IMG/VR virus record: IMGVR_UViG_3300032053_000396
Location: 1-28,311 of that record
From: a virus
Length of the DNA: 28,311 bases
Reading direction: 5' to 3' (one strand)
Below are positions 2,915 to 25,500 of this stretch, piece by piece (the first letter of the stretch is position 1; the number at the start of each line of letters is the position of its first letter). Both the position numbers and the translations under genes were made by a program. The notes beneath the pieces were generated by a model. That model worked only from the letters and a program-made list of their open reading frames with translations, was not told the DNA's origin and made no database searches.

Positions 2915-3280
2915 ATGTCTACAGCTAGCCAAAAAACGTTGCGTGATCGTCTGTTATGGGTTGAGAACGCCCGACAGGGTATTTTGAGTGCCATAGGAGA
3001 CGATGTAGTCGGTACGAGGTTCACTGTCCATCCCACTGTAGACCCTCTCAAGCTAATTCTCAAGGTAACATTACGGCGACCTTTGACCAAGAACACAAAA
3101 GGCCATTTGAGAACATATCTTCGCTGCCATGCTGAGAGCAGCGGATGCGAACTACCAACCATCAAAATCAAAGACTCTTGGATACAGGCAGAAGTCCTTA
3201 TTCAGAGCAGACACAGGAGTCGTGATGCAAAAGGACATTTTCAGAGAGGGGGTAGGAAGTTTACTGGCCGGACTGGATGA
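2915..3280 (+). CDS. Hypothetical protein, 121 aa, overlapping the RNase HII start
   Basis: This open frame begins 30 nt from the divergent terminase start and ends 56 nt inside the RNase HII gene, in another frame. The product is basic and has no motif that I recognise. Its middle part (about residues 30-100) alternates hydrophobic and polar residues, as in beta strands, and does not look like random translation. No good SD precedes the ATG, so it may be leaderless or a weak start. It fills a gap that would otherwise be empty between two divergent genes, which supports it. It could also be a remnant, or the long overlap could mean that the true stop region is not conserved. Function unknown. 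Confidence 0.5.
   Translation: MSTASQKTLRDRLLWVENARQGILSAIGDDVVGTRFTVHPTVDPLKLILKVTLRRPLTKNTKGHLRTYLRCHAESSGCELPTIKIKDSWIQAEVLIQSRHRSRDAKGHFQRGGRKFTGRTG
3215..3219 (+). promoter_or_regulatory. RBS that sets the RNase HII start
   Basis: AGGAG lies 5 nt before the ATG at 3225. This favours 3225 over an in-frame ATG at 3129, which would add 32 residues ahead of the conserved N-terminus of the family. Confidence 0.7.
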
Positions 3281-3842
3281 AGTCGGTCTGGGTTCTTTCG
3301 CTGGGCCGATTTGTGTCGTTGTTGTTGCCTTCCCCAAAGATTTCCCACCGATACCCGGGGTCAAAGACTCCAAAAAACTAAGCCGAAAGAATAGGGAGAA
3401 ACTCGCTCCCCAGATCTTGAAGGCCGCGTCCTTCTTCGGGATTGGTTGGGCTCACCCACAACTCATAGACAGTGCTGGTATAACCAAAGCATGGCAGCAT
3501 GCGGCGGACCAAGCACTTCAAGGTGCTCCCAGATTTGACTGTCTTTACGTGGATGGAATGCGGCGGGTAAAGTCGTATCGGGGACCCGAAGTCGTTGAGC
3601 CCCACGGGGAAGACAAATGGTGGCAAGTAGCCGCAGCTAGTATCGTAGCTAAAGTGAGCCGGGACCACGACATGAGAGAAATGTCCAACATCCACCAGGG
3701 CTACGGATTCGAGAAACACGTCGGGTACGGTACCAAGGCCCACATCAACAAGATATTGGAGCTTGGACCTTGCTCTTACCATCGAATGACCTTTCTGAAG
3801 AAGCTCTACATGCAATCCTACGAAGCCCTTGGGTATAAGTAA
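3225..3842 (+). CDS. rnhB: Ribonuclease HII
   Basis: The 205-aa product is a full-length RNase HII, the metal-dependent endonuclease that cuts the RNA strand of RNA-DNA hybrids and starts removal of single ribonucleotides from DNA. The signature GLDEVGLGSFAGP gives acidic residues D18 and E19. DSKKLS follows at 48-53, then VDGM with D110, and ASIVAKVSRD with D147, which together make up the DEDD active site. The start at 3225 is chosen from the AGGAG just upstream and because it puts the first motif at the usual distance from the N-terminus. The gene sits between an unknown ORF and the amidase gene on the plus strand, amid minus-strand late genes. Primer or R-loop removal during phage replication is the likely role (inference). 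Confidence 0.95.
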   Translation: MQKDIFREGVGSLLAGLDEVGLGSFAGPICVVVVAFPKDFPPIPGVKDSKKLSRKNREKLAPQILKAASFFGIGWAHPQLIDSAGITKAWQHAADQALQGAPRFDCLYVDGMRRVKSYRGPEVVEPHGEDKWWQVAAASIVAKVSRDHDMREMSNIHQGYGFEKHVGYGTKAHINKILELGPCSYHRMTFLKKLYMQSYEALGYK

Positions 3843-3845
3843 GAT

Positions 3846-3864
3846 GGAGGGAATAATTCCCTCC
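3846..3864. repeat. Perfect inverted repeat between rnhB and the amidase gene
   Basis: GGAGGGAATAATTCCCTCC is a 9+1+9 perfect palindrome starting 4 nt after the rnhB stop and ending 17 nt before the next ATG. RNA could fold as a 6-bp GC-rich stem with an AATAATT loop. No T-run follows, so it is not a standard terminator. It could protect the 3' end of the upstream message, set relative expression, or bind a protein. The 5' arm contains GGAGG, so the hairpin also hides an SD-like sequence. Confidence 0.6.
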
Positions 3865-3881
3865 ACAACCGGAGGAAAACC

Positions 3882-4889
3882 ATGTACACCGAAGACCTGC
3901 CACTGCGGGTCATTGATCTGGGGTCTAAGGAAAAGGACAGGTGGAAACACGTTGTCGAGCAAGACTACAAATCAATGCGCGCACTGGCCAAGCAAGCAAT
4001 GCAGGAGTTGAAGTCGGTATCACCACTGCTACTCTCACCCACCTTGCATCTAATATTTCGGACAGCGTACGAGCTCTGTGGAGGAATGTTCTTGGGGGAG
4101 CTGAAGTCTCTGGCCCGCGGAATGAACATCTCCGCATCTCTGGCAACCGTACTCAACTGCACCTACGAACTAAGCCACGTCGGAGGGGCAATGAGATCAT
4201 TCGGTTGCACGGCCGCAATCAAGAAAACAAAGGACTGCGGGCTTGTACTGGTGAGAAATTTGGACTGGCCATTGTCCAAGATTGGGAAGGCTACGAGAAT
4301 ATTCAAGTTCGTCGACCGGAGTAGGCATTTTCTCTCTGTGGGTGTGGCCGGGTACGTTGGGGTGCTTTCTGGGATGTTGCCTGGCAAATATGCTGTCACC
4401 ATCAACTGGGCACCACCCTACCGGTTACCCTCTATGAAGAAACCGGGAGCATCATTCCTACTGAGAAAGGTTCTTGAAGAATGCAACTCCTACAAAGAGG
4501 CGGTTCGGGTCTTGTCCACATGCCCGATGTCTACCTCGGCGTTCTTCACAGTCTGCGGTGTGAAGAGTGGTGAAGCGTGCGTGATAGAGAGAACTCAGAC
4601 GGATGCAGCCGTACGGAAAATACATCACGGTCAGTTGGTTCAGGCAAACCATTTTGTGTCCAGCAAATACCAACACCTCAATGCAGCTTTGGATGACGAT
4701 GGAGACTCCGGAGTTTTGGAGTTCTCTCAAGAGAGGGCCGGGCTGCTTGAAAAAAGACTGACCGGAGAGAAGACTTTCCGGCAGACCTTCAATGCTTTGG
4801 ATGAAGACTGGGTGTTGAATGGAGACACTACTCAGCAGATGGCATTCTGCCCGAAGACAGGAGAGATGAAAGTTGGACGGTGGACTTAG
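3882..4889 (+). CDS. Acid ceramidase/NAAA-like Ntn-hydrolase (amidase)
   Basis: The 335-aa product matches the N-acylethanolamine acid amidase/acid ceramidase group of cysteine Ntn-hydrolases, which cut the amide bond of N-acyl lipids or related amides after self-cleavage. The N-terminal part carries an LPLRVIDLGS...DRW pattern like the NAAA-beta segment of those enzymes. The predicted nucleophile is C109 in SFGCTAAI, at which self-cleavage would free the catalytic Cys. RNLDWP follows, with R125 and D128. The offsets of 16 and 19 from Cys agree with those I recall for human NAAA (C126/R142/D145) and acid ceramidase. N256 in QANHF is a candidate for the conserved Asn. No signal peptide is obvious. 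GGAGG sits 6 nt upstream of the ATG. Its stop overlaps by 4 nt the stop of the convergent 522-aa gene. Substrate unknown; a penicillin-acylase or bile-salt-hydrolase-like activity is an alternative. Confidence 0.82.
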   Translation: MYTEDLPLRVIDLGSKEKDRWKHVVEQDYKSMRALAKQAMQELKSVSPLLLSPTLHLIFRTAYELCGGMFLGELKSLARGMNISASLATVLNCTYELSHVGGAMRSFGCTAAIKKTKDCGLVLVRNLDWPLSKIGKATRIFKFVDRSRHFLSVGVAGYVGVLSGMLPGKYAVTINWAPPYRLPSMKKPGASFLLRKVLEECNSYKEAVRVLSTCPMSTSAFFTVCGVKSGEACVIERTQTDAAVRKIHHGQLVQANHFVSSKYQHLNAALDDDGDSGVLEFSQERAGLLEKRLTGEKTFRQTFNALDEDWVLNGDTTQQMAFCPKTGEMKVGRWT

Positions 4890-6454
4890 TCTTTGTCCTT
4901 CTGACCCATCAGGGCCTTGGCTCCGCGGTACGCCCCGTAGCCAAGGCCCAATCCTGCTGCTCCTCTTATAGCCCAAGGTAGCACAGACAGTGCCTTCTCA
5001 TATAGCAACTGTGGACCAGTCCGTTTGGCGTGATAGATGCCTGCCGTCTCCAGTGCCGCAGACCTTCGGATATGGTGGGGTAGAATGTTAGCACCCTCTA
5101 CACCCTTGGCCAGGCAAACGGGGGAGGCCATACCCGGTAGACTGGAGCATACCGATGCTCCCGGTGACGGTGCTTCTTTACCCCCAAGTGCTCGAGCTAC
5201 AGACTCCGGAAGGAATGATCGGCCGGCGCTACGAACCCCACGCGGGGTGTCGTACATGCTACCCCGGGCTGCTCCTCCAAATCTTTCCTCAAGTCCCTCT
5301 TCAGCTATTTGTCGTGTCTCGAGGTTCTCCAAGAACTTCTCCCTGTGAGCTGGGTCTTTGAACCTCTTGATGATGACGTCGTCTCCTTTGTCAGGGTGAG
5401 CTGAGTACCCGTAGGCACCACCCTCCTGCGGAGAAGCGTGAACGTACCCGAACGCACCCCTCTTTCGATTCTTAGGTACGCTGGTTACTGTGGTGACGTG
5501 ATACCCGTGAGGATCTGCCCCCAGGCCCGATATCATAGACTTGAAGTACCCAGATTTTCCGGGAGATGACGTGAGCACAATGTCACCAGGCTGTAGAGCC
5601 TTACTTACGTCTCTCACACTCTTCAGCTTCTTTCCCTTTTCTGGGGCATTGGAGGAAAGTGACAAGGCCTTCGACTTCAGACCCTGGAGTATGGGGGCAG
5701 ACCCAAAGAAGGCTCCTGCTGCAGCAGGTGTGTAGTCGGAGACATTCTTGTTGTCAGAGCTCATTTTATTGAGTCCGTAAGCGATAGGTGCCGCAACTGC
5801 AGTTCCAGTCAGGAGCCGTGTGAGGTTTTCCTGACTTCGGGCGCGGGACACTGCATCACGGTGAGCCCACATCCTATTCTCCAGGTCCAGGCTACCCTTA
5901 TCGCCCCATTCCATAGAGACAGGCTTCTTCCCACCAATCACGTCTCGGATGTACCCATGGGTGACGTCCCGATTCATCCCCTTGAGCTGACGAACCCCTC
6001 GGTGGGAATCTAGTACGTTGCTCATCCCCTTGTTCAAGGCGGATTCTGATTTCCTGCCTGCCAAAAGCCCCATGTAGTCTTTACCAATCGTGGCAAGCCT
6101 CTTACCCTTTGGTATCTTGTCTATGTAGTCCAGGCCCCGGAATGTCGCCCCCGCTTCCTTTTCCTCTGCTGACTCTTCTTTGGCTGGAGCGTCCTCTTCG
6201 AGAGGGCCACCCGGTATAGCCCCAGATCCCTTCTCTACATCAGGACCAATATCACCCCCGTGGGGCGCTTCAACCTCTTCGGCTTCTTTCATGATGATGG
6301 ATAGCTCGTCCAAGAATGCAGCTTGTTTCACATGCTCTGGAAGCTTGCCTTTAGGCGTTGCATCTTCCCAGTGTTTCACAGTTGCGGCCGAGATCTCACC
6401 ACGACTCTTCATGGCGTAGAACTTACGGCGCTGTGCTTGAGATTTGAACGGCAT
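4886..6454 (-). CDS. Virion-type protein with permuted papain-like (NlpC/P60, YiiX-like) domain
   Basis: This 522-aa protein is the last gene of the RNA polymerase/virion string. Residues 1-40 (PFKSQAQRRKFYAMKSRG...WEDATPKGK) form a short module that recurs at the N-terminus of phage proteins. Residues 60-100 are acidic and Pro/Gly-rich. Hydrophobic stretches occur near 214-226, 242-254 and 494-510. Residues 288-450 resemble the circularly permuted papain fold: QPGDIVL at 288-294, a His in GYHVTTVT (H319, or H316), and a downstream Cys in SVCSSLPG (C436). That His-before-Cys order is typical of YiiX/LRAT-like enzymes. The protein may cut or modify peptidoglycan or an acyl/peptide bond during entry (inference). 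AGGAGGT precedes the ATG and lies inside the last codons of the upstream gene. The stop overlaps the convergent amidase stop. Confidence 0.68.
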   Translation of the reverse strand: MPFKSQAQRRKFYAMKSRGEISAATVKHWEDATPKGKLPEHVKQAAFLDELSIIMKEAEEVEAPHGGDIGPDVEKGSGAIPGGPLEEDAPAKEESAEEKEAGATFRGLDYIDKIPKGKRLATIGKDYMGLLAGRKSESALNKGMSNVLDSHRGVRQLKGMNRDVTHGYIRDVIGGKKPVSMEWGDKGSLDLENRMWAHRDAVSRARSQENLTRLLTGTAVAAPIAYGLNKMSSDNKNVSDYTPAAAGAFFGSAPILQGLKSKALSLSSNAPEKGKKLKSVRDVSKALQPGDIVLTSSPGKSGYFKSMISGLGADPHGYHVTTVTSVPKNRKRGAFGYVHASPQEGGAYGYSAHPDKGDDVIIKRFKDPAHREKFLENLETRQIAEEGLEERFGGAARGSMYDTPRGVRSAGRSFLPESVARALGGKEAPSPGASVCSSLPGMASPVCLAKGVEGANILPHHIRRSAALETAGIYHAKRTGPQLLYEKALSVLPWAIRGAAGLGLGYGAYRGAKALMGQKDKD

Positions 6455-6457
6455 GAC

Positions 6458-6655
6458 TTACCTCCTAATACGTCCTTTGAAAAGCAAGGCAGAGGCGATA
6501 AAGGGAGCTGACAAGGCAGCAGGGGCAACTGCATATGACCCGTAGGCCTTCCAAAGGTTATGCCTCATCTTCCCTAATTCTTCTGGGGTATAGCTACCAG
6601 TTTCTTTCACTGTTCGGTACCCTTTTAGAGATGCCTGAGCCTCATCAATCATCAT
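6458..6655 (-). CDS. Small membrane protein, 65 aa
   Basis: The start ATG overlaps the ligase stop as ATGA, and the stop is 3 nt from the next ATG, so the gene is embedded in the operon and probably translationally coupled. Residues 1-38 are polar and charged. Residues 40-59 (SYAVAPAALSAPFIASALLF) form one likely transmembrane helix, followed by a basic tail KGRIRR, which suggests that the C-terminus stays inside. It has the size of a small holin-like or spanin-like protein, but a single helix and position are not enough to claim that. Family not recognised. Confidence 0.75.
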   Translation of the reverse strand: MMIDEAQASLKGYRTVKETGSYTPEELGKMRHNLWKAYGSYAVAPAALSAPFIASALLFKGRIRR

Positions 6656-8181
6656 TGGAAGCGTTCCAGCTGCATGACTGAAATTTTTTCTAGTTCGTCT
6701 ACGAAGCCGTAGAGCATAGCAGCTTTTTCAATTTCGCCTTTGTCTAAATGCCATCCGTTGAATCTCGGCTGGAACAAGGCACCCGCCTCATCACCATCCT
6801 TGAAGACCTTGGTGGCTTTCACTCTCGCCACCCTACCAACATACTTGTCCGGGTTCTTTAGCATGTCCGTGGCTTCGTCATGCTTGAATCCACCTACTTG
6901 GCCCACTATAGGTCCACCGGGAGTCCAAGAGTAGCTAATTGCCCCAGCTCTCTCATAAGGCTTCCCCGTCTTACCGCTTACGGCCGGGTGAACCCCGCGT
7001 ACATACACGTCGAAATCGGGTGCAAACTTGGCCTTGATTGGAATGACTGGGTCATTAGGAGATACCAACACCACTCCCTCATCAGTCAGAGGATGCTGCT
7101 TTGACCTAATACGGTTGAGCAAGTCGATCTTTTCTTCTGGGGTCGTAGCTAGTTCTGGCAGCCATGCTGGCCCAAAAGACTTCTCCACCTTCTTCAAGAC
7201 GTCGAGCTGCTGAGAGTATGGGGCACCTTCCATAGACTTTCCGTGGTACTGCACCAAGCCGTGTGGATAGACCTGCAGTTTGACACCGAGCTCCGCTTGC
7301 TTCTTCCGGCTATCCCACACCTTGGAATTGAGAAGGCCCCCGAGAGTCTCTAGAGGTATGGCCTTACCATCTTTGTCTATGCCCAGGATCTCTACACGGG
7401 CAATAGTACGGTCTAACTCTTTAGGCACCTTGGTCTTCAGCAATTCTGGAATCTTGTGAGTGTGCTCGATAAGGCCAGTCTTTGCAATTTTGGCTACTCG
7501 GTAAGAGAACAACCTCGGTGCTCTACCTGCCTGTAAATCTAAGATACCATGAGCTCCATTGAGCTTAGGCATCATGGCCTGAGTGGAATCAGTAGGGTCT
7601 ACCTCGTCAGGGTCAATTTCTTCGAACGTGAGTTTTTCCGCTGGTAGCTCCGGACGGTTCTCGCGCGTTTGGGTTTTGTTATGGATGAACCATTTACCTT
7701 CTTGGTCTTTGCGGATCGAGTATTCTTCCGGCTGTGTGCCCTCGTAAAGATTGAAGCGAACTTTCGTCCCAGCCTGGTCAGTAGAGTCAGCATGATAAAC
7801 CTCCGCAGTTGTTCGACGACCTTTAACAACCTTGCCCTTACCATACTGAGTAGAAATATCTCCCCAGTAGTTCATGTACGGGATAGTGTGGTCAAAAGTC
7901 GGAATGACCCTCGCCATTTCCCCTGGACCCGGTAACTCCGTTCTCTTTGGAAGAACAAATGAGTGAGCAACACCTGTAGCTGGATTTCCTAGTCGGATGT
8001 CAACGTGAGTTCCAGACCTCACAGCTAGATGAGGGTGAGCTGAAAACTCCCAATGCTTCGGTTCCTTGACCGTTGGCAAGGGCGTGATCTTCTTCTTAGA
8101 CACCCCTGGTCCAAGATCACCTTCCCGATAGTGCTCCCGTTCTTTGGCAGCCGCCATCTTGCTGAAGTCCAGGAGTCTCAC
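6652..8181 (-). CDS. ATP-dependent DNA ligase fused to a LigD-type 3'-phosphoesterase domain
   Basis: The 509-aa protein has two enzymatic parts. Residues 42-150 resemble the LigD 3'-phosphoesterase: HVDIRLG (H59, D61, R63), SFVLPK, and DHTIPY with H98 and Y102, the same HxD and H-x3-Y spacings as bacterial LigD. The first active-site His is less clear, perhaps H51, since the loop is two residues longer. Residues 200-400 carry nucleotidyltransferase motifs: PKLNGAHG (candidate adenylated K206), ARVEIL (E264), TDEGVV (E368) and IKAKF (K383, K385). The C-terminal part up to about 490 fits an OB fold. The enzyme should heal 3' ends and seal nicks. No polymerase domain or Ku gene is in view. The start is GTG with a poor SD; ATG at codon 9 is an alternative. 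The last residues hold an FVDELEKIS motif discussed in the findings. Confidence 0.85.
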   Translation of the reverse strand: MRLLDFSKMAAAKEREHYREGDLGPGVSKKKITPLPTVKEPKHWEFSAHPHLAVRSGTHVDIRLGNPATGVAHSFVLPKRTELPGPGEMARVIPTFDHTIPYMNYWGDISTQYGKGKVVKGRRTTAEVYHADSTDQAGTKVRFNLYEGTQPEEYSIRKDQEGKWFIHNKTQTRENRPELPAEKLTFEEIDPDEVDPTDSTQAMMPKLNGAHGILDLQAGRAPRLFSYRVAKIAKTGLIEHTHKIPELLKTKVPKELDRTIARVEILGIDKDGKAIPLETLGGLLNSKVWDSRKKQAELGVKLQVYPHGLVQYHGKSMEGAPYSQQLDVLKKVEKSFGPAWLPELATTPEEKIDLLNRIRSKQHPLTDEGVVLVSPNDPVIPIKAKFAPDFDVYVRGVHPAVSGKTGKPYERAGAISYSWTPGGPIVGQVGGFKHDEATDMLKNPDKYVGRVARVKATKVFKDGDEAGALFQPRFNGWHLDKGEIEKAAMLYGFVDELEKISVMQLERFQ

Positions 8182-12808: not shown

Positions 12809-15800
12809 TTAGTACAACCAGGGTTCTTTCTCTGTACCTTTACCAAACTCTGAACCCCTAGCCATGCCCGGAATTGGGTGTGTGGAATGAACTAGAGACC
12901 TCCACCCCTCTGATGCAGCGTTGATAATCGTTTGTTTCAAACCTCGACTCTGAAGCAGTGCAATCCAGTCCTCCTGCAAGTCCAGGGGCAGCATTGCCGC
13001 GCCCTTGAGAACCGGGCTGTGAATTATCGCTTTCTTGTCCTTTGGTAGCTTCCTATTGAAGTCCTCAATCTCTGAGGTGGGTGACATATCCCCACGAAGC
13101 AACTCGGGGTGACTTCCTGGATCTTTAACCTCGCTCAAGTTCGTCAGGGCCCGAACAAAGGTCTCTGTATTTCTCCGGCTCAAAGGAGAGGTGTTCTTGT
13201 AGACTCCCTGAATCTCGTTGACCAAATAGCTTTGCACCGAATTGAGGCCTGTCAGTTTCAGCATCTCACGAGGGTTCTTCGGTCCAAGAGTAATGGCATC
13301 TCCCTTTTTGACTGCGTCACCTCTCTTAACCACTAGCTCGCGGCTCCCTGGAACGTAGTGTCGTTGACCCTTAATAAAGACGTCCCAACCACCCGCTGGG
13401 TCCTTATCGATCTTTTCTATGTGACCATCAGCTTGGGAGAGCACCGCAGACCCAGGCAGGCGTTCCGGTAGACCGAGGAGCTGGTTGAGGCGAGTGAAGG
13501 TGCTTGCCGCCTGAGTTCCCCTAGCCCCTACGATCCCCCCGGTATGAAAAGAATTATGGGTACGGATACCATTAGCTGTAAACGCCTTACTCTCAGTGGC
13601 CAGGTCATAGGTCCATCCTTCATAAGATACCGGCTTCACTGATACTACTTTTCGATAAGATCCTTTGTATGCTGGGCCATCCACCGGTTTGTTTCGTTTT
13701 ACTCCGGTCAACCTAACTGGAAGAGTGAATGAAACTCGGTACCCTTGATGCTTAGAATACCGTCTCCAAGGAGTGGAATACACAGCGGGAATTCCCCCTA
13801 GAGATAAAACAAGCGCAGTAACTTGGGACACTAACGCCACGCTTGTCGTATCGAAGCAGATCTTATTTTTGGTAATTGTTCCATCCCCGTCAATTAAACC
13901 AGACAACAGGTCAAGCCGTCCTATTGAAGACAAAACTGCCCAACCGGGAGGAAGAGTTTTCCTATACGAATGAATTCCACACTGCTGCCATAAGTTTCTG
14001 CTCAGTTCAGTGTCATTCAACTGAAGGATCTTAGGAGAAGGTTCCGTAAAGATCAGTTTTGCCTTCTTCAATTCTGCTTTTATACGAGTTCGCACGGCCC
14101 CAAACTTTTGAGATATGTCGGCCGACAATATTTTCCAGTGCAGACCATAAGAAGCGGTGTTCCTATGTTTTCTACCTTCCTTCATACGAGGCATAGTTTT
14201 TAGTCTTCTTACGTTACCTTCTGTGACAAAAATACCTAAGAGATATGGGGGCAGCGGTAATCTAGTTTTTTGACTGTCTTTTCCAGGTACCCATACTGAA
14301 GAGGTTCCCATCTCCATATTCTCTAGATTTTTAGCATCAACTACGATTTCCTGCTGATCTTCATACAGGCTGCGAAAAATGCTGAATGTTCCTTTACAAC
14401 TGGGGCAGCGAACAGATGTTTTTGGATTTGTCCTGGAAGATAATTTCCAGTGTCCAACAAACTTTACGGGGTCATCACCCCCACAGTGTGGACAAATCAC
14501 AATACATCGACGAGCCCAATTAGGGTGGTTCCCTTGGACTACAACAGCGTGACCATCCTCTAACCGTACTAAGTTCATAACATCGTCCGGAAGATGTCTT
14601 TGGATAGTGTAAACTCGTGTAAACCGGTCATAGTCCCAGACTTTCCAGCCAGAAGATATTTTGGTCTCTAACCCGTTATCGTTATCTACGGTGGAATCTA
14701 TTTTGTTCCAAAGCTGATCCAGCGTAAGAATTTCCATAAGGTCTTTTGGGTTGAGAACTGACACCAAAGTTCCAGAAGCTACGCAGTTCATTGAAAGCTG
14801 GGTTGCAGGTTCTCCTAATGCTTGCGCTGCAATGACACCTACATTAGTGCCCACTTCATGCAATTTTCCTTCTTCGTTGATACCGTAGCATTTGGCGCAG
14901 AGGCCTTTGCCGTGTGCACATTTCAGGGGCGTTCGGATTCGTATATCGGCAATCTTGTTGTTCTTGAACCGGTTGAGTAGGTCTGGGGTAACAAGAGTAC
15001 CGTTAGGAATTACCCCTTTATCTTTTCCTATTCTTGAGCCTAAATCAATGTCCCCTACAGTGTACCTGCCAATAATACCGCGGTCGTCAATACCCATTCG
15101 TATTCCAGTTCCCGTGCCGCAGTCCTCACTGACTATCATTTGGTCCATAGTAGTTTGCATGATCTGCTTGCTAGCAAGACCAGGTTGCCAGGTTCCTTCA
15201 ACCCTATTGATCGTTCCCATACGGGCACCGTGCATAGCTGTCCAGTAGGAACCAATGTCTAGACCCTCTGAATAGGATTTTGTGATAGGAACCGGAACTA
15301 TAACCCCCTTGGCGTCAGATACGAGCATAGGGGCAACAGTCATTTGCTTAAACTGGTCCCAGTTACCCTTCGCACCGGACTTCACCCAGTCGTACATACG
15401 GTTTTGTGAACCCTCTAACTTTTTCTTCACGGCAGAATCTATCTTCTTGCCTGCGTCTGAATAGATCCGAACTACCTCTTCATCCTTCTTCTTCTGAGAG
15501 AATTTCGAATTTGTACGAACGTGAGATTCCTCTTTTTTGGCATGATCCAAAACAGAATCTCGTTCATTTGCATAGGACATAAAATCTTTGAGGCTTACGG
15601 ACAGACCGGTGGAGGCCTCATTACCCAAGTCCTTCAATTTGTCGGCCACACGAGCGAAACTTCCCCGCTCTTTTTGTGCAACCTCAGTTAGAAGATCTGT
15701 GAGGTTATCCTTACCAAGGGTGAATTTGGGGTCGTGCAGAACCTTTTCGTGTCTATCGGACGGGGGCAGCGCGTTATAGACCATAAGTCGCCCGACAGAC

Positions 15801-18800
15801 GTAACCTTCGATGCACTCAACTTGTCCAATCCTGCCTTGATTTCTTTAAGGTCCCGGATAATGACCGGGTCATTCATCCCCAACCTTCCATCCTTCACGG
15901 CCCTGGCAGCATCAGCAACATCATTGAAATGCCGAACACCAATCCCTGGTTTGAATTGGGTGAGTTTGAACAGTCCCATCATTGACTCCTGTGTTGGTTT
16001 GAACATCAGGTAGCCATTCGACGGGCTAAAAAGATTGTTGGAGGGGACCATCTTGAAGGCTTCTTTCACAGCCTTTGAACTGACCGGAACGAAAGCACTC
16101 ATCTTATCACCGTCAAAATCAGCATTGTACCCCGAGGTTGCCAATGGATGAATCTTGACAGCTTTTCCTTCTACGATCCTAGGTATGAAGGCCTGTACGC
16201 CGAACTTGTGAAGGACTGGGTCTCGCTTCAAGAGCAAAGGCCTTTCCGACATTACAGTTTCCAAAGCTCGAGAAACTTCCTCTGTGTTCTCCTTGATGAG
16301 CTTTTGAGCTTGTAGAGGCGTTCTCCCTTGCTGAACAAGACGTTGGACAATAAAAGGTTTGTAGATTTCTTGAGCTGCCTTCCGTGGAATACCTACTTCG
16401 TCCAGAGACAAAGAGGGCTCAGGAACGATAGTACCACGCATAGACAAATCCTGGCGCTTACCAATGACCTTATCTTGGAAGAACCCTTCTTTGGGTTGGC
16501 CCTCTCCAGAGATGACTGTTGCAATACTATTAAGATGCCGACCCTTATTAACCGCACCTGTCAGGGTCAATGACTTGACACCGTCATAGAGTTCAGACCT
16601 CAGAGGATGAGCTTCGGATTCCGGCATTACCTTTGGGTCAAACTCTTTGAGCTTGTCATTACTATTCGCCAGCATAGTATAGAGCTTGTTCAGCCCGTCA
16701 AAGTTCATCTTACCGCTGTCAAGCACTGTAACTGGGCGCATGATAGGGGGTAGGACCGGAATATGCTTGATAGTATAGGCCTCCTTGGGGCTCATACTCA
16801 GTCTCTCTAGGGTACGAAGATACTTCAACTTTCGTGTAGCCTTATTGAGGTTACCTTCTCTGGATGTTGGGATTGCCGTTTCCAAGTCTTTCTTCTCTTT
16901 TGAGACATCGATTTTCTTTAGAGCGTCCACAATAGCCGCCGGACCAGTTTTACCGTCTAGGTCCTTCTTGCTCTCAATGATGTCTTTGTACTGTGGAGAA
17001 GTTAACCCCAACAGTGAGATTATGGAGGATTCAAACACCGGGTTGGGCATACGCTCTGCGAGAGTGATATGAGACCACTTATCCCCCAGAAATCCAAGAC
17101 CCTTGGTACCTGTGATCGCAGAATCAAAAATGCCCCCTGGTTCGGGTTTCAAGTTTCTACCAACTAACGTAGCCCCCGCGTCCTTCAATTCTCCATTGCT
17201 CATTTCAAGGGTCTTCTTATCGGTCAACGGTTGGAGAATGAGGTCATTACCCTGCTTGTCGATATCCAGGCCCATACCGCGTAGGTACCCTTCAAACTTC
17301 TTGAACACGAATGGTATCTTAGGAGTAGGGACAGACTCTCCGGCTTGTAGCAATGTCCAAAAGTCGTCGTTTTTATCAGACTTAAACGTCTGCATCTCCC
17401 GGATGTTCTCCCGGGCGTTATGGGCTAGCATTGCGTAGAGTCCCATAGCATCCATTGTCTGACCACCGTGAGGACCGCCCTTCCTAGGGGTCATATTGGA
17501 GTCATACGCGTCTCGGAACCTCGCCTTGAGGCCTTTGGTGGCAGTATGGTGCAGCTTTAGGATGTACTGCTTACCCGTCAACACCTGACCGTAAGAACGG
17601 CCTGTAACTGGATCCACCATTTCTTCGGTATCCGACAGCCCGAGCTTATCTAGTTCCTTCTTCAAGTGCCTGGTGTAGTCCGGAATGCTAGAGTCGAAAT
17701 TGTTGATGATCAGAGTCTTTCCTGTCTTATCTGCTATCTTCGACGCAGCAGTTTCCAAGATTTGACCGACGTTGATACGAGAAGGAACTCCCGTAGGGTT
17801 CAACAGGACCTCTGCGTGAACTCCGTCCTTAGACTTAGGCATTTCATGATCGGGAAAGACACCGGTTATTATGCCCTTGTTTCCGTGACGGCCAACAATC
17901 TTGTCCCCGACGTCAGCAGGAGTCTCAGCACTAACGTAGACAGTGATGCTCTTCCCATGTTTCACAACCTGGGTGACCACACCAGGAACATCCTTTTCCC
18001 AGATCAGAGGTCTAGGCTTAATCGGCTTCACCAATTTTTTACTGATAAGAGCTACCTTCTGCTCATCCGGAGTTATCTCCTCTAAACGCATAGATCCTAT
18101 CAGTACATCCCCAGTCTCAACTCGCTCTCCGGGCTTGATGACCGCGTCGTCATCCAGCTTATCCATAACAGCCTTAGAGGTTACTGCACCCACTTGTGCC
18201 CGAAACTTCTTTTTGTCGAGAATGATGTTCCTCTCGGCATAAACACTATTACGAAAGAGATGCTCTGAGGTGAGCTTATTCGCCGCGGACCTTGATATGA
18301 CGATACCATCGTCGTAGTTGTATCCTTTGAATGGCATATAGGCGACACGAAGGTTCGTACCAAGAGCTAGTGTCCCGTCTTTGGTAAAGTTTGTATCAGC
18401 AACAACCTGGCCCTTTTTAACGTCATCTCCTTCTTGTACCAACGAGTGAGAATGGAGCTCGCTTGTATCGTCGTTCATCGGGAAATGGTGATAAATCTGA
18501 ACCTCATGTCGTACACCGTCTTTACCCCGAATGAGGATGGCATCATCTTTGACTTTCATCACCTTTCCAGCTTCAGGAGACTGATGAGAAGTAAACCCTC
18601 CTACAATTTCCTCGAAAGTTTGATTGCCCTCGGACTTCACTTGAACCATAGGCTTTTCCCGATACTTGAGAGAGACGGCCTGTTCCAGTTGTTTGGACGC
18701 CATCATAGCCCGGTTTCCTTGGTTGCTCTGCAGGTAAGGAATCAGGTTAGCACTCAGATCGAACATGGCCTTAGTGGAGTTGAGAACGTAGTCAACCTGG

Positions 18801-21283
18801 TTAGGCCTCATCATACTTATTTGACCCTTTGAGTCCGTAGCCTTCACCATCGTACCAACAGGAGTTAGTTGGCCATCACCTTTCTTGTATTGGTCTGGAA
18901 AGGCTAAGTTGGACCGAAGAGCTGTTGTAGGGCTAATCCACACCCTTTCCCCCGTCTTAGCTTTGATTACAGGAATTTCGATGTCAGTACCCCGCTTACG
19001 AACTCCTAACGCAAGTTGCAAAGTTGTACCTATTTTTTCGCTGTTGCCCGACCAAAAACCTACGCTGCCATGACGACGTACATAGAGCAGACTCCCTGGT
19101 ACAGTGGCACAGTAAACTATTCCATCATAATCCACCGTGTAGTAATTGGCGGGGTAGTAAGGATGTGCAGGACGTGCTGTTCTAACCGGATGCTCCAACA
19201 GTCTAACCTCATGCACGTCCAAATAACGATCTTCTCGCTTGTCTTCGTAGACTTTACGGCTGACAGGTAGGCCTAACCCAATTGCCAGCCTTTCAAAATC
19301 ATCGGCCAGTCTTTGACTAGTTGTCGTGAGTACCCTTTGGTGGTATGAACGACCATCTTTTCTATTACCGGAAAGGCACCCATCCCCAAGAAGTAACGAC
19401 TCCAGCAACGCGGTTCTGGCCTCGATGCTGGTAGTAGCCCGAAAGAAAACTTCAGGGATATATTTGTCGTTACAGAAGCCAAATTCCTTCAGATAGTGTG
19501 CAAGTTGTTTAGACCCAGTAGCCCAAGATGTCCTTTCTCCGTCGTGTGACCAAGTCCAAGGTAATCTGGAAAATAGACTCCTCAGCCTCCCCCAGTTTTC
19601 TTGGTTGACCTTGAAACTTTGAGATATTCGAACCAGATATGCAGAAGTTTCTTCTTTGTAGGTTACACACCCCTCCGATAAATACCAACCCATAAACTCA
19701 GCCCAATCTCTCATGGGGATCAGGCTGTGAAGTTTTAAGGCATTTCCACCCTCAACTTCTGGAAGAGAAAACATCTCTTCTACAGGAATCGGATCTTCCA
19801 AAACAAAGGGCGCATGGGATGTTATGAACCGGCGCTCTTTACCGTGAATCCTATCCGCGGTATCAGTCTTCCATACGTCGGGCTGCCACGGAGTTGAGTG
19901 ATAAACGCGATGATTAGGGGTAACAAGATAATCAATTTTGCTGGCTAGAAGACCGTACATTGGGCCTTTATATGGCAGTCTGATCAACTTCTCTGGTTTG
20001 TGAAATTCTAACGCCCCATCAATTCTACAGGCTAAGAGATCCTGGTCGGTTACGTCTTTCCAATATTTCCAGCCCTTGAAAGTGAAAACTTCTGTTTCGG
20101 CATCAAAACATTCGGGACTCTGGATCGGATCTAGGAATCCTGTATGGCTAGGGTTGATGATTTTTGCGCTAAGAACAACCTGGTGCTCCTTTTGAATGCC
20201 ACCCTCTCCACGAATAGTAGTACGCCGATTTCCCCCAATGTAGCTCATAGGGTTCATCTGGTCGGGTCGCTCGGTTGATGTACCTTGGGTAAAAAACGCC
20301 TTGATCGGCTTCCCAAAGATATCAGGCCCCATGATCTGTTTGACTTCAGTGTGTTTGTCTATTCCGTTGAGAAGCTTCCGTTTGATGTCCCATTTATGCT
20401 TCCTGACCAGTCGGTCAGATAGAAGATCCTCAGCGGAGTAAAGATCTTTGAACTCCAGAGAATCCCGGTCGTCGGGCTGCTCTTCTCCACGGGATACTTG
20501 TAGTATTCTTTCAGAACCTGCCAACAGGGCAGCACCGTCCACTTTATCAAAGGGCTTGCCCAGCGTAAGTTTGGTGGCCTCCGGTCGCATTTGGGTGCGG
20601 CCAAACTCTTCGATAACTAACTTCTCGGCCTGGTCGTTGGAAGTTGGGGGCTCATCCTTAAAAGCTTTGTAGAACTTCCGTAAGGCGATGTCGCTCTTTT
20701 CTTTCTTGTTGGCCGACAAGATCTCCTTACCCCATTTTCTCTCTATCGTGTCATCGTCTACTCCCATCGCTTTGAGAATAGGGTAGAGGGGGATGTGAGA
20801 CCCAGTTCCAGAGAAATTGATGGTCATACTTTTGGACTTCGGGTCAAAGTCCATGTTGAAGTTCAAACCCTTAGCTAAGTTCCACTGAGAGGCCAACTCA
20901 CCATTCTCTTTGACATGCGTATAAACACCAGACTTCAGGCGAAACAGGTTGTTCACCTGGTATTCAGTGCCACCCACAATGTAAGTGTACCGGTTCGTGA
21001 TTTTGGGAAGTTGAGCTACAGTGGCAACCTGACGGTCCTTGACCTTGCCAGTTTCTTTGTCTCGAAGCTCAAACTCTGCCCGAACAGGAACAGCCCACGT
21101 ACGGTCGTTAAGACGGGCTTCTTTTTGCCCGCGGAGGTCATCTATGTCCCGGTTGTCATCTACCCAGACTTTGGTAGCAACAAGAAGGTTCTTTCGCCCC
21201 TCTAGGGGAAATTGACCCTTGATTGTTGAGGATACCCTACTTTTGAGAACTTCGAACGCTTCTTGAGGATCATAATGTGCCAT
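12809..21283 (-). CDS. Single-chain RNA polymerase, beta and beta' fused, with two inteins
   Basis: The 2,824-aa precursor holds both large catalytic subunits of a multisubunit RNA polymerase. After removal of two inteins (356 and 411 aa) it would be about 2,057 aa, well short of the 2,749 of E. coli beta plus beta'. Beta landmarks: IVGGTEYQVNNLFRL near the N-terminus, SPE/SEKIGTT at intein 1, GYNYDDGIVIS, and GRHGNKG at 1131-1137. Beta' begins near 1384 (GGIFDSAITG) and shows VLDSGKMNFDGLNKLY, the active-site NADFDGD at 1720-1726 and SYWTAMHGARMGT. The C-terminal Zn site is C2055, C2122, C2129 and C2132. Then come ALGEPATQLSMN and the trigger loop with intein 2. The N-terminal beta' Zn finger is missing. 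ATG at 21283 is chosen for the GGGAG upstream; a GTG at 21298 is less likely. No alpha, omega or sigma gene is in view. Confidence 0.95.
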   Translation of the reverse strand: MAHYDPQEAFEVLKSRVSSTIKGQFPLEGRKNLLVATKVWVDDNRDIDDLRGQKEARLNDRTWAVPVRAEFELRDKETGKVKDRQVATVAQLPKITNRYTYIVGGTEYQVNNLFRLKSGVYTHVKENGELASQWNLAKGLNFNMDFDPKSKSMTINFSGTGSHIPLYPILKAMGVDDDTIERKWGKEILSANKKEKSDIALRKFYKAFKDEPPTSNDQAEKLVIEEFGRTQMRPEATKLTLGKPFDKVDGAALLAGSERILQVSRGEEQPDDRDSLEFKDLYSAEDLLSDRLVRKHKWDIKRKLLNGIDKHTEVKQIMGPDIFGKPIKAFFTQGTSTERPDQMNPMSYIGGNRRTTIRGEGGIQKEHQVVLSAKIINPSHTGFLDPIQSPECFDAETEVFTFKGWKYWKDVTDQDLLACRIDGALEFHKPEKLIRLPYKGPMYGLLASKIDYLVTPNHRVYHSTPWQPDVWKTDTADRIHGKERRFITSHAPFVLEDPIPVEEMFSLPEVEGGNALKLHSLIPMRDWAEFMGWYLSEGCVTYKEETSAYLVRISQSFKVNQENWGRLRSLFSRLPWTWSHDGERTSWATGSKQLAHYLKEFGFCNDKYIPEVFFRATTSIEARTALLESLLLGDGCLSGNRKDGRSYHQRVLTTTSQRLADDFERLAIGLGLPVSRKVYEDKREDRYLDVHEVRLLEHPVRTARPAHPYYPANYYTVDYDGIVYCATVPGSLLYVRRHGSVGFWSGNSEKIGTTLQLALGVRKRGTDIEIPVIKAKTGERVWISPTTALRSNLAFPDQYKKGDGQLTPVGTMVKATDSKGQISMMRPNQVDYVLNSTKAMFDLSANLIPYLQSNQGNRAMMASKQLEQAVSLKYREKPMVQVKSEGNQTFEEIVGGFTSHQSPEAGKVMKVKDDAILIRGKDGVRHEVQIYHHFPMNDDTSELHSHSLVQEGDDVKKGQVVADTNFTKDGTLALGTNLRVAYMPFKGYNYDDGIVISRSAANKLTSEHLFRNSVYAERNIILDKKKFRAQVGAVTSKAVMDKLDDDAVIKPGERVETGDVLIGSMRLEEITPDEQKVALISKKLVKPIKPRPLIWEKDVPGVVTQVVKHGKSITVYVSAETPADVGDKIVGRHGNKGIITGVFPDHEMPKSKDGVHAEVLLNPTGVPSRINVGQILETAASKIADKTGKTLIINNFDSSIPDYTRHLKKELDKLGLSDTEEMVDPVTGRSYGQVLTGKQYILKLHHTATKGLKARFRDAYDSNMTPRKGGPHGGQTMDAMGLYAMLAHNARENIREMQTFKSDKNDDFWTLLQAGESVPTPKIPFVFKKFEGYLRGMGLDIDKQGNDLILQPLTDKKTLEMSNGELKDAGATLVGRNLKPEPGGIFDSAITGTKGLGFLGDKWSHITLAERMPNPVFESSIISLLGLTSPQYKDIIESKKDLDGKTGPAAIVDALKKIDVSKEKKDLETAIPTSREGNLNKATRKLKYLRTLERLSMSPKEAYTIKHIPVLPPIMRPVTVLDSGKMNFDGLNKLYTMLANSNDKLKEFDPKVMPESEAHPLRSELYDGVKSLTLTGAVNKGRHLNSIATVISGEGQPKEGFFQDKVIGKRQDLSMRGTIVPEPSLSLDEVGIPRKAAQEIYKPFIVQRLVQQGRTPLQAQKLIKENTEEVSRALETVMSERPLLLKRDPVLHKFGVQAFIPRIVEGKAVKIHPLATSGYNADFDGDKMSAFVPVSSKAVKEAFKMVPSNNLFSPSNGYLMFKPTQESMMGLFKLTQFKPGIGVRHFNDVADAARAVKDGRLGMNDPVIIRDLKEIKAGLDKLSASKVTSVGRLMVYNALPPSDRHEKVLHDPKFTLGKDNLTDLLTEVAQKERGSFARVADKLKDLGNEASTGLSVSLKDFMSYANERDSVLDHAKKEESHVRTNSKFSQKKKDEEVVRIYSDAGKKIDSAVKKKLEGSQNRMYDWVKSGAKGNWDQFKQMTVAPMLVSDAKGVIVPVPITKSYSEGLDIGSYWTAMHGARMGTINRVEGTWQPGLASKQIMQTTMDQMIVSEDCGTGTGIRMGIDDRGIIGRYTVGDIDLGSRIGKDKGVIPNGTLVTPDLLNRFKNNKIADIRIRTPLKCAHGKGLCAKCYGINEEGKLHEVGTNVGVIAAQALGEPATQLSMNCVASGTLVSVLNPKDLMEILTLDQLWNKIDSTVDNDNGLETKISSGWKVWDYDRFTRVYTIQRHLPDDVMNLVRLEDGHAVVVQGNHPNWARRCIVICPHCGGDDPVKFVGHWKLSSRTNPKTSVRCPSCKGTFSIFRSLYEDQQEIVVDAKNLENMEMGTSSVWVPGKDSQKTRLPLPPYLLGIFVTEGNVRRLKTMPRMKEGRKHRNTASYGLHWKILSADISQKFGAVRTRIKAELKKAKLIFTEPSPKILQLNDTELSRNLWQQCGIHSYRKTLPPGWAVLSSIGRLDLLSGLIDGDGTITKNKICFDTTSVALVSQVTALVLSLGGIPAVYSTPWRRYSKHQGYRVSFTLPVRLTGVKRNKPVDGPAYKGSYRKVVSVKPVSYEGWTYDLATESKAFTANGIRTHNSFHTGGIVGARGTQAASTFTRLNQLLGLPERLPGSAVLSQADGHIEKIDKDPAGGWDVFIKGQRHYVPGSRELVVKRGDAVKKGDAITLGPKNPREMLKLTGLNSVQSYLVNEIQGVYKNTSPLSRRNTETFVRALTNLSEVKDPGSHPELLRGDMSPTSEIEDFNRKLPKDKKAIIHSPVLKGAAMLPLDLQEDWIALLQSRGLKQTIINAASEGWRSLVHSTHPIPGMARGSEFGKGTEKEPWLY
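13553..14785 (-). other. Intein 2 of RNA polymerase (trigger loop site, 411 aa, with Zn ribbon)
   Basis: The insert runs from Cys (CVASGTLVSVL) to ANGIRTHN, followed by SFHTGG. Spliced extein reads GEPATQLSMNSFHTGG, equivalent to GEPGTQLTMRTFHxGG of the bacterial beta' trigger loop. Block B is GNHPNW. Between it and the endonuclease lies a CPHC...CPSC zinc ribbon. LAGLIDADG motifs are LLGIFVTEGN and LSGLIDGDGT. C-terminal splicing blocks are YEGWTYDLATESK and ANGIRTHN. All expected residues for canonical splicing are present. Confidence 0.95.
19043..20110 (-). other. Intein 1 of RNA polymerase (beta part, 356 aa, ends Gly-Asn)
   Basis: The insert starts CFDAETEVFTFKG and ends SVGFWSGN, then extein SEKIGTT. 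Spliced extein reads PIQSPESEKIGTTLQ, the place of the TPEGxNIGL motif in bacterial beta. Block B is TPNHRVY. LAGLIDADG motifs are WYLSEGC and LLLGDGCLS. The C-terminal block contains YDGIVYCATVPG. The residue before the final Asn is Gly, not the usual His, and block F has Cys where Asp is common. Boundaries keep the frame and give the full conserved extein. Confidence 0.93.
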
Positions 21284-21289
21284 TAACGA

Positions 21290-21294
21290 CTCCC
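21290..21294 (-). promoter_or_regulatory. RBS that sets the RNA polymerase start
   Basis: GGGAG on the minus strand lies 6 nt before the ATG at 21283. An in-frame GTG at 21298 would overlap this site and has no SD of its own. Confidence 0.6.
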
Positions 21295-21357
21295 ACACCT
21301 ACGTCTTTTTCAACGGCGCATACCGTCTAACGTAGTGAGAGGCTCTTAGAGCCCGAC

Positions 21358-22515: not shown

Positions 22516-25500
22516 CTAAGAAGACTGAGCTTCAGGACCTCGACGAGGAACCCTTTGCGGGGGAGCCGGTGTAGCTGCTGAGCTTCTTTCTGCTCCAGTT
22601 GCCTGCTGTAGGAGTACCAGAACAAGGCTGTAGAGCTGCGGGTTATTGACCTGCATTTTCACCAGCTCGTGGTTCTTTTCATGATCAGGAAGCTTGTTCA
22701 GCCACTTGACCACTTGGGAAGCCACAGACTGAAGGTCTAATCCAAAGCTCGGGTTCTCTGGCAGTTGCGACTGCACCTCACCCATTGCTGGAGGTGATCC
22801 GCCCGCTCCCTGATTTACTCCAGCCTGTTCAACCGGACCTTCTTCCATCGGTTGGATTGGAGGAATCTCCATACCGGGAATTTGGCCGCTGCGATTCATC
22901 ATCTCACTCTGCGTGTTCATCATCTGGCCTTCAGCAGCAGGGCTGGCTAATCCTGGTTGGCCCATTCCAGGCATCGGCTCCGCAGCGGGCATACCCTGAC
23001 CTGCGGCTTCAGGAGTCATTTCCGTCATCAACTTTTGACCGCGCATCTGGTACTTGGCCATGATGAGCTGGGCTTCACCTTGAATAGAAGCCTGACTGAG
23101 AGCCTGATTCCTCTGACCCTCCAAAACCATCTTCCTCTCGCGCTCGATACCCTCGGCCTCTTTTCGGGAATCCCAGTCTGTATCTTCGAGCAGGGACTTA
23201 TCGCTAATCTTTCCGGCCTGGTTGAGTTGCATGTAGAAGGCGCTGCGCTGCAGGTCGTCTGCCATCTTGAACCGTTTGTAATGGCATGGAACCGAGTCCC
23301 AGCCCATGAACGCTGAAACGTTGGGCATGATGAAGTCTGTCACCAGTTGCTTGCGCTGAGTCTTGACGTCGAGAAAATGATTCTCTAGAATACGCATTGA
23401 AACGTTAGAGCCAGAATTGTGCGTAACTAAGCCATCCGCAACGTATGAGTGATCAGTATCAATCGTTAAATCACCCATTGGAACTTCGAAATCAAACAAC
23501 TCAACCTCTTGAACCTCATCCCATATGTAATGGGCTTCAGCCAAAAGCTCAATCCTCTTGGCTAACTCAGGTTCTTTTTCACGTAGAAAAGATAGGTCGG
23601 TGTCAGAGAGCCTGGAATAAGTCATCCCGTCAGCGCTACGTCCTGGAATCACCTTGTGAACCCCACGCCCATAATGCTGCAAGAAAGCTTGCAAGTCCTC
23701 ACGAAGGATTAGATCTGTACCAAATCTCCCAGAAACTCCGGGCAGGGTACGACCTACTTTAAGGCGACCTTGCTTAATGTGGTAGTGAACTGTGGTGAAG
23801 TCACGTTCAAGAATATCAGCGACCTCCTGAACCGTGTACTCCTCTTTGTCCAACTGAACATTGATAGGTTCGAAACTCCAGCTTTGTTTGCCTGTAAAAT
23901 ACTTTTGACGAACCTGGTCCAAAGCTTCCTTGAGATAGGGGATACGTTCTCCTACATGAGTCTTTCCAACGGGGGTACGATTTTTCAGATATTCTTGTTT
24001 AATTGTGGAAACAAATCCAATTTCTTTGGCAAAGACGTCTATATATTCAGAGCGAATTTGCAGCTGCCACATTTCAGACGTTGGGTTGAAATACCGAGAG
24101 GAGACTATTCCCATATTCAGAAGAAGCAATTGAATCTGTTTAAGCAGCTCTTCAGATTTGGAGCCGCAAGATACCATCTGCTTGCCAGTGTTACTCGTTG
24201 AGACTGAGCCGTCGCCCTCAAAGTACGCTCGAAGAAACTCAGCAACCAGATGCTTGGGCGCTTGTCTTACGCACCACGGCACAACTTTATTATACGAGTC
24301 ACCTATCGCCCCCATTGCTTGAAGAAGTAAAACTGCAGGACGCCGTCCTATTTCCGTTGTAGTGCAGCCAAACCCGCTATCCCATTTAGTGGGCCTGTAC
24401 CCAAAAACATTTTCCACGGTATTAAGGAAGTCGTCCATAACCTCCTGGCATTTTTGTGTAAAAGCCAGACTGGTCTCTCCACAAGTGCCTTCAGAAATCA
24501 AATAGCCCAAGAGTCGAGCAATACCTAAAGTAAGCTCTTTAGAGAGTTGTGGAACCGGGAACCGTTCTGCCGTTCTAACCAGCTTCTGTGACTGTCTCCA
24601 CTCCTCAATCTGTTCAAAGGCTTTTTGTGGAACTGAGGGCGTCTCAGAGGGCCACAAATTCATTCCGGCCCTTACCGCAATGAAATCTCCAGCGATAATC
24701 TCCGAAGTCTTTTTCCACACCATCGAAATATCTTTGCTCAGCACGAGAAAACGATGATCATAAGATGACTCGGAGTCCAAGCCTAATTTGGTACGAATGA
24801 GAGAATTCTTTTTTGTCCCCGTATTATGAGCAGCTTCTATTCTTTGTGTGCCGATTCTTGTGGCCACAGAAACTTCTGAACTACCCGCAGTAGTGCCATG
24901 GGCAGTTGGAATTAAATCCTTTAGCTGAACTAGACCTTTTGAAGAGAAAAGATAGCTGTCAATTTTTTTGCAGTATTGCATCCCACCAAAAACGAACTCA
25001 ATCGGAACGCCCATACCAGCGATGATGTGCTCCGCCCACTGACGATACTCTTGAGCAAGCATAAGAGCTTTACCATCACCACCAAGAGTCTCTGACCCAA
25101 TAGGGACGGGGAGAATAGGAATGTAATTGTTGTCGAGTCTCCACCGTATGAGCTCGTTCTCAATCTTGTCTCTCCACTGGGTCAAATTGACCGTCGAATT
25201 ATGTGTAGCTACACCAACAACGCAGAAAGACTTGTCTCCCTCAATTTGAAGACCCCGTACGGTCTCTACGTTAGTTACAGTCTCTATACTGTTTACCCGT
25301 AGATACACGTAGTCCCCGCGGAAAAATCCACATTGGCTGTGTGTATCAATTCGCCTTTCAACCTTTGCAGGGTCCCACCCCAGAAGTACTGCCAGGTCTT
25401 CTGCCTGTTTTCCATTTACATTTACGTGGTAAATGGGGAGTTTAGAAATTTCATCCTCACGAGGAATCCGCTGTTGAACCCCTGCAATAAAACCGAATGA

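Follow-up and report, generated by a model that had tools for sequence, protein, structure and literature searches.

A probable acid ceramidase/NAAA-like amidase encoded near terL in a phage

Does a phage encode, close to its terL gene, an amidase of the acid ceramidase/NAAA type, and to what use might such an enzyme be put in an infected cell? The question arises from an open reading frame at positions 3882–4889 (+ strand) of a 28,311-base fragment of an IMG/VR virus record, which we call the window. A preliminary description had proposed this family for the gene product and a phage as its bearer, and had suggested host N-acyl lipids, signalling amides or a defence metabolite as conceivable targets. 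In animals, enzymes of this family degrade ceramides and other amides of fatty acids. In the literature that we searched we found no report of an acid-ceramidase-like protein in a phage and, as far as our searches show, the family has not previously been described in tailed bacterial viruses. However, giant viruses of protists (Fadolivirus, Edafosvirus, Yasminevirus and Sylvanvirus) encode acid-ceramidase-like proteins of the same fold family, with 13–21% identity to the phage protein; virus-borne members as such are therefore not unknown.

The gene product and its family

The amidase gene has an intact frame of 335 codons with an ATG start, located 6 bases after a Shine–Dalgarno motif (GGAGG, 3871–3875, +), and it codes for a 37.2-kDa precursor. 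The protein scores above the curated cut-offs of NCBIfam C45_proenzyme (NF040521; E 7e-32, 111 bits against 85) and of Pfam AAT (PF03417; E 2.8e-13, 50.5 bits against 23.2). Taken singly, it stays under the Pfam cut-offs both for PF15508 (NAAA-beta; E 0.0018, 19.1 bits against 27) and for PF02275 (CBAH; E 0.0076, 16.4 bits against 20.4). A single-sequence phmmer search of the PDB returned acid ceramidase (8.6e-12), followed by NAAA, and matched no other family. We also ran a family profile, composed of the phage amidase and its relatives (25 sequences), against solved structures. Acid ceramidase (8e-36) and NAAA (2e-28) were matched across both of their subunits, separate alpha-subunit chains among them. 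The match to isopenicillin acyltransferase was weak (4.5e-6), and none was obtained to a bile-salt hydrolase or a penicillin V acylase. PF15508 matches 18 of the 25 family members at E ≤0.01, with a best value of 5e-8. The proposed fit of the N-terminal segment to the family is thus weak for the phage protein alone, given its score in PF15508, and becomes firm only when the relatives are included, given these matches and those of the profile to alpha subunits.

An AlphaFold model computed from 28 sequences (pLDDT 85.6, pTM 0.87) was compared with known structures using Foldseek. Its nearest neighbours are acid ceramidase (5u84, 5u81 and 6mhm) and human NAAA (6dxw and 6dy3), with TM scores of 0.79–0.80. 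Isopenicillin acyltransferase (2x1c) follows at TM 0.72 and an rmsd of 5.5 Å, and bile-salt and penicillin V enzymes at TM 0.42–0.48. The model thus predicts the same fold as acid ceramidase and NAAA over both subunits. No other Ntn family gives a better match by profile or by fold, and the family assignment of the preliminary description is borne out by both. Hence, the product of 3882–4889 is very probably a phage-encoded acid ceramidase/NAAA-like Cys Ntn-hydrolase.

In the profile alignments, C109 falls on the position at which the mature NAAA and acid ceramidase beta chains begin (residue 1 of 6dy3_B and 6mhm_B). By analogy, the phage precursor is predicted to be cleaved into an alpha chain of residues 1–108 (3882–4205, +; 12.1 kDa) and a beta chain of residues 109–335 (4206–4886, +; 25.2 kDa), with C109 as its N-terminal nucleophile. 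C109, R125 and N256 (codons at 4206–4208, 4254–4256 and 4647–4649, all +) are invariant in both of our alignments, of 25 and of 28 sequences. D128 (4263–4265, +) is invariant among the 28 sequences and replaced by Asn in one of the 25. Among 23 bacterial relatives, C109 and R125 are invariant and D128 is present in >90%. All four residues are kept in a phage homologue with 46% identity (see below), so a loss of catalytic residues in close homologues, which would have spoken against the assignment, is not seen. N256 aligns with the oxyanion/active-site residue Asn320 of acid ceramidase, the side chain of which serves the oxyanion hole and the mutation of which impairs autocleavage (PMC5915598).

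The assignment had been proposed in part because C109, R125 and D128 are spaced as in the human enzymes. The residues and their spacing (0/+16/+19) are correct. However, bile-salt hydrolases fit it as well: among their PDB entries are ones named C2A and R18L, i.e. a spacing of 16. It is therefore a mark of the Cys-Ntn superfamily rather than of acid ceramidase and NAAA, and as weak evidence it does not discriminate between families.

The animal enzymes resemble the phage protein to different extents. Acid ceramidase (ASAH1, MEROPS C89) has about 21% identity with it and shares the alpha-subunit motif NLDLP..RW of the family, the Cys nucleophile at the chain junction, the R and D residues at +16 and +19 and the catalytic Asn, but its long loop after RNxD is absent from the phage protein alignments. 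NAAA, with about 20–24% identity, shares the catalytic residues and has a short loop after RNxD, as in the phage amidase. Both animal enzymes are lysosomal and acid-active, and acid ceramidase depends on saposin D. In contrast, inspection of the N-terminus of the phage amidase revealed no apparent signal peptide. As its bacterial relatives are also devoid of one, we infer a cytosolic location.

Phage setting and distribution

The terL gene lies at 2–2911 (−) and its frame is interrupted by an intein; the intein-free allele matches phrog_675 (E 4.5e-67). Among the named phages closest to it by TerL are large ones such as Salmonella phage Arash and Vibrio phages D69, D181 and D148. The intein, of 432 residues and LAGLIDADG type (1301–2596, −), sits in the motif GRQVEK|intein|ST in the Walker A region. 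The same terL without intein is found in a virus about 99% identical to that of the window (L002), which makes a presence/absence pair in one virus population. Directly upstream of the amidase gene is rnhB, coding for RNase HII (3129–3842, +), which is core to this phage lineage, including members without the amidase. An inverted repeat, GGAGGGAA-TAA-TTCCCTCC, lacking a T-run, separates the two genes (3846–3864).

On the other side, a gene coding for a 522-residue protein (4886–6454, −) converges on the amidase gene and overlaps its stop codon by 4 bases, both here and in a second phage, G017. The protein has no match in Pfam or NCBIfam, and its PGDI..H..CSS pattern is suggestive of a permuted papain-like/NlpC-P60 domain. 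A strict pairing of this gene with the amidase was rejected, since two other contigs carry the domain without the amidase (L009, where it is fused, and L105).

Further along, a 509-residue protein (6652–8181, −) is 57–66% conserved in many relatives, is missing at that place in G017 and has weak matches to a LigD phosphoesterase domain (1.4e-5) and to a phage DNA ligase. A single ORF at 12809–21298 (−) codes for a 2,829-residue protein with Rpb2 then Rpb1 domains, that is, a fused beta-beta' RNA polymerase; the protein carries the motif NADFDG (residue 1725) and, close to its C-terminus, an intein. Its best named matches are to the same Salmonella and Vibrio phages as those of terL. The polymerase appears fused in G017 too, whereas in Vibrio phage D69 the matching region is annotated as several genes. 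A clade of Caudovirales has been reported to have multi-subunit RNA polymerases (PMC7481178). Finally, a 1,638-residue protein (22516–27432, −) contains two LAGLIDADG intein regions, and its G017 homologue has just 688 residues.

We found the amidase gene in two further contigs. The 5.7-kb L002 contig is about 99% identical to the window in DNA, and its amidase gene is identical. G017, a 138.6-kb phage contig, codes for the homologue with 46% protein identity. Its gene order is that of the window: terL, then rnhB and the amidase gene on the opposite strand, the converging gene and the same structural genes. The amidases of the window and G017 form one clade, with support of 100/98 (100/100 in a second tree). 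The phage origin of the gene, as first proposed, is thus supported by terL, rnhB, the fused RNA polymerase and the occurrence of the amidase gene in the terL region of G017 as well.

That few viral contigs carry the gene and that most of its kin are bacterial might point to bacterial contamination or misassembly in the virus record. This explanation has a negligible probability: it is effectively refuted by the synteny in the independent G017 contig, and the second contig of the same virus has identical amidase DNA. In addition, a single-sequence scan of genome contigs with the phage amidase gave no match, and no close bacterial match to it was found in our genome contig searches.

Among 46 virus records related by terL, retrieved in terL scans and searched for the enzyme family, the amidase occurs in two virus lineages and in no further virus. 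Nineteen relatives have rnhB at the corresponding position, directly followed by a different gene, and lack the amidase. The amidase is therefore an accessory gene, rarely carried and placed at a site that varies between phages, and its rarity indicates that it is dispensable; it has either been lost repeatedly or been exchanged between related phages. Its position beside terL thus holds for the window and for G017, whereas most relatives lack the amidase at this site. Neither phage amidase was matched in INPHARED, in which matches to the bacterial-type relatives fall on short unannotated contigs that are probably bacterial DNA. When amidase queries were scanned against 2.9 million viral contigs, only the window virus, L002 and G017 came back, although scans of this kind, which rely on short conserved patterns, can miss distant members. 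We rejected the proximity of rnhB as evidence for a role in RNA repair, because rnhB also adjoins terL in members of the lineage that lack the amidase.

Bacterial relatives

The closest cellular relatives that we found are short C45 proteins of about 310–330 residues, scattered in Bacteroidota, Myxococcota, Planctomycetota and Acidobacteriota; in one Bacteroidota family, only five of the 301 genomes sampled have the short form. They share with the phage amidase their size, the lack of a signal peptide, the invariant residues and a C-terminal QQM motif, at 25–29% identity. They differ from the phage pair, which forms a deep branch of its own and has additional segments ahead of C109 and behind N256.

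In eight genomes (L133, L134, L046, L047, L049, L050, L053 and L055), the short C45 gene lies within an rtcB-prfH RNA-repair cluster, an arrangement of which we found no report in the literature searched. Most of these clusters also contain a gene for a nucleotidyltransferase-like protein of 182 residues. In Kordia, Aquimarina, Dokdonia and two further genomes (G1000 and G1130), the C45 gene occurs with rtcB and a prfH-like gene whose product bears a GGQ motif. In the latter two it is located between rtcB and prfH, with a 4-base gap to prfH in one and a 4-base overlap in the other. The proteins linked to rtcB-prfH fall in at least two places of the tree, in a poorly resolved region. The majority of the bacterial kin do not adjoin rtcB; other neighbours code for SIR2 together with DUF4291 proteins, an R2K ATP-grasp protein, Fic proteins and an exoribonuclease. 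Together with rtcB and prfH, these neighbours hint that the bacterial family may act in conflict or stress.

Possible roles in the infected cell

The mechanism that we consider most likely, with a probability of roughly 0.6, is the hydrolysis of an N-acyl amide in the host cytoplasm. The precursor would cut itself between G108 and C109 into chains of 12 and 25 kDa. C109 would then act on the amide carbonyl of an N-acyl substrate while R125, D128 and N256 hold nucleophile and oxyanion in place, and an amine and a fatty (or other) acid would be set free. The most likely target during infection would be a host lipid or metabolite bearing an N-acyl group, and its hydrolysis would benefit the phage. 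Here we infer self-cleavage, hydrolysis over acyl transfer, a lipid-like substrate and the benefit to the phage.

C45 enzymes include acyltransferases, and the phage protein might instead act like acyl-CoA:isopenicillin N acyltransferase, acylating an amine, with CoA or ACP as the acyl donor, and so forming an N-acylated compound during infection. The two proteins have Pfam AAT in common, which is the best Pfam family for the phage protein, the NCBIfam family is named acyltransferase/hydrolase, and the folds are related, as seen in the Foldseek match to 2x1c. However, the sequence match is weak (14–16% identity), the structures superpose less closely (2x1c/2x1d; TM about 0.7, rmsd 5.5–6 Å), and both profile and fold are clearly nearer to the hydrolases acid ceramidase and NAAA. 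Acyl transfer is thus an unlikely alternative. Less probable still is an acylase of the penicillin V, bile-salt or AHL type, acting for instance in the quenching of quorum signals. The superfamily is shared, and there is the CBAH match, weak and under its cut-off, but the absence of solved members among the matches of the family profile and the low TM scores do not favour a quorum-quenching or bile-salt acylase.

The neighbours of the bacterial genes point in another direction. Colicin E3 damages ribosomes, and the repair pair RtcB2-PrfH gives protection against it (PMC9223846). The nearest bacterial kin of the phage protein lie in rtcB-prfH clusters, with tight junctions in two genomes, and other kin adjoin the SIR2–DUF4291, R2K ATP-grasp or Fic genes. 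The phage protein could accordingly be no lipid enzyme at all but a conflict enzyme tied to translation or RNA repair, which would remove an amide-linked toxic or defensive modification and serve the phage in counter-defence. We regard this as doubtful, to about the same degree as acyl transfer. Most bacterial kin are away from rtcB, we found no rtcB and no prfH/RF-1 domain gene in the phages, and the phage proteins are on a long branch outside the bacterial ones; because of the last two points, the bacterial role is not simply transferable to the phage. A broader form of the idea seems slightly less probable again: the short cytosolic family as a whole would be a component of bacterial conflict systems, in some cases with RtcB-PrfH, and phages bearing an RNA polymerase would carry a diverged copy for counter-defence, removing an undescribed amide-linked modification or defensive molecule.

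Amide hydrolysis thus being the preferred mechanism, the phage amidase is best read as a rare accessory gene whose self-activating, cytosolic product is used in the infected cell. In animals, amidases of the acid ceramidase/NAAA family control bioactive lipids, and since inhibitors and fluorogenic substrates are known for them, the phage version is directly testable. With this enzyme, the actions of phages on their hosts would come to include a reaction on lipid amides (or amide tags), and the link of its bacterial kin to RtcB-PrfH offers a concrete place to seek the function of the family.
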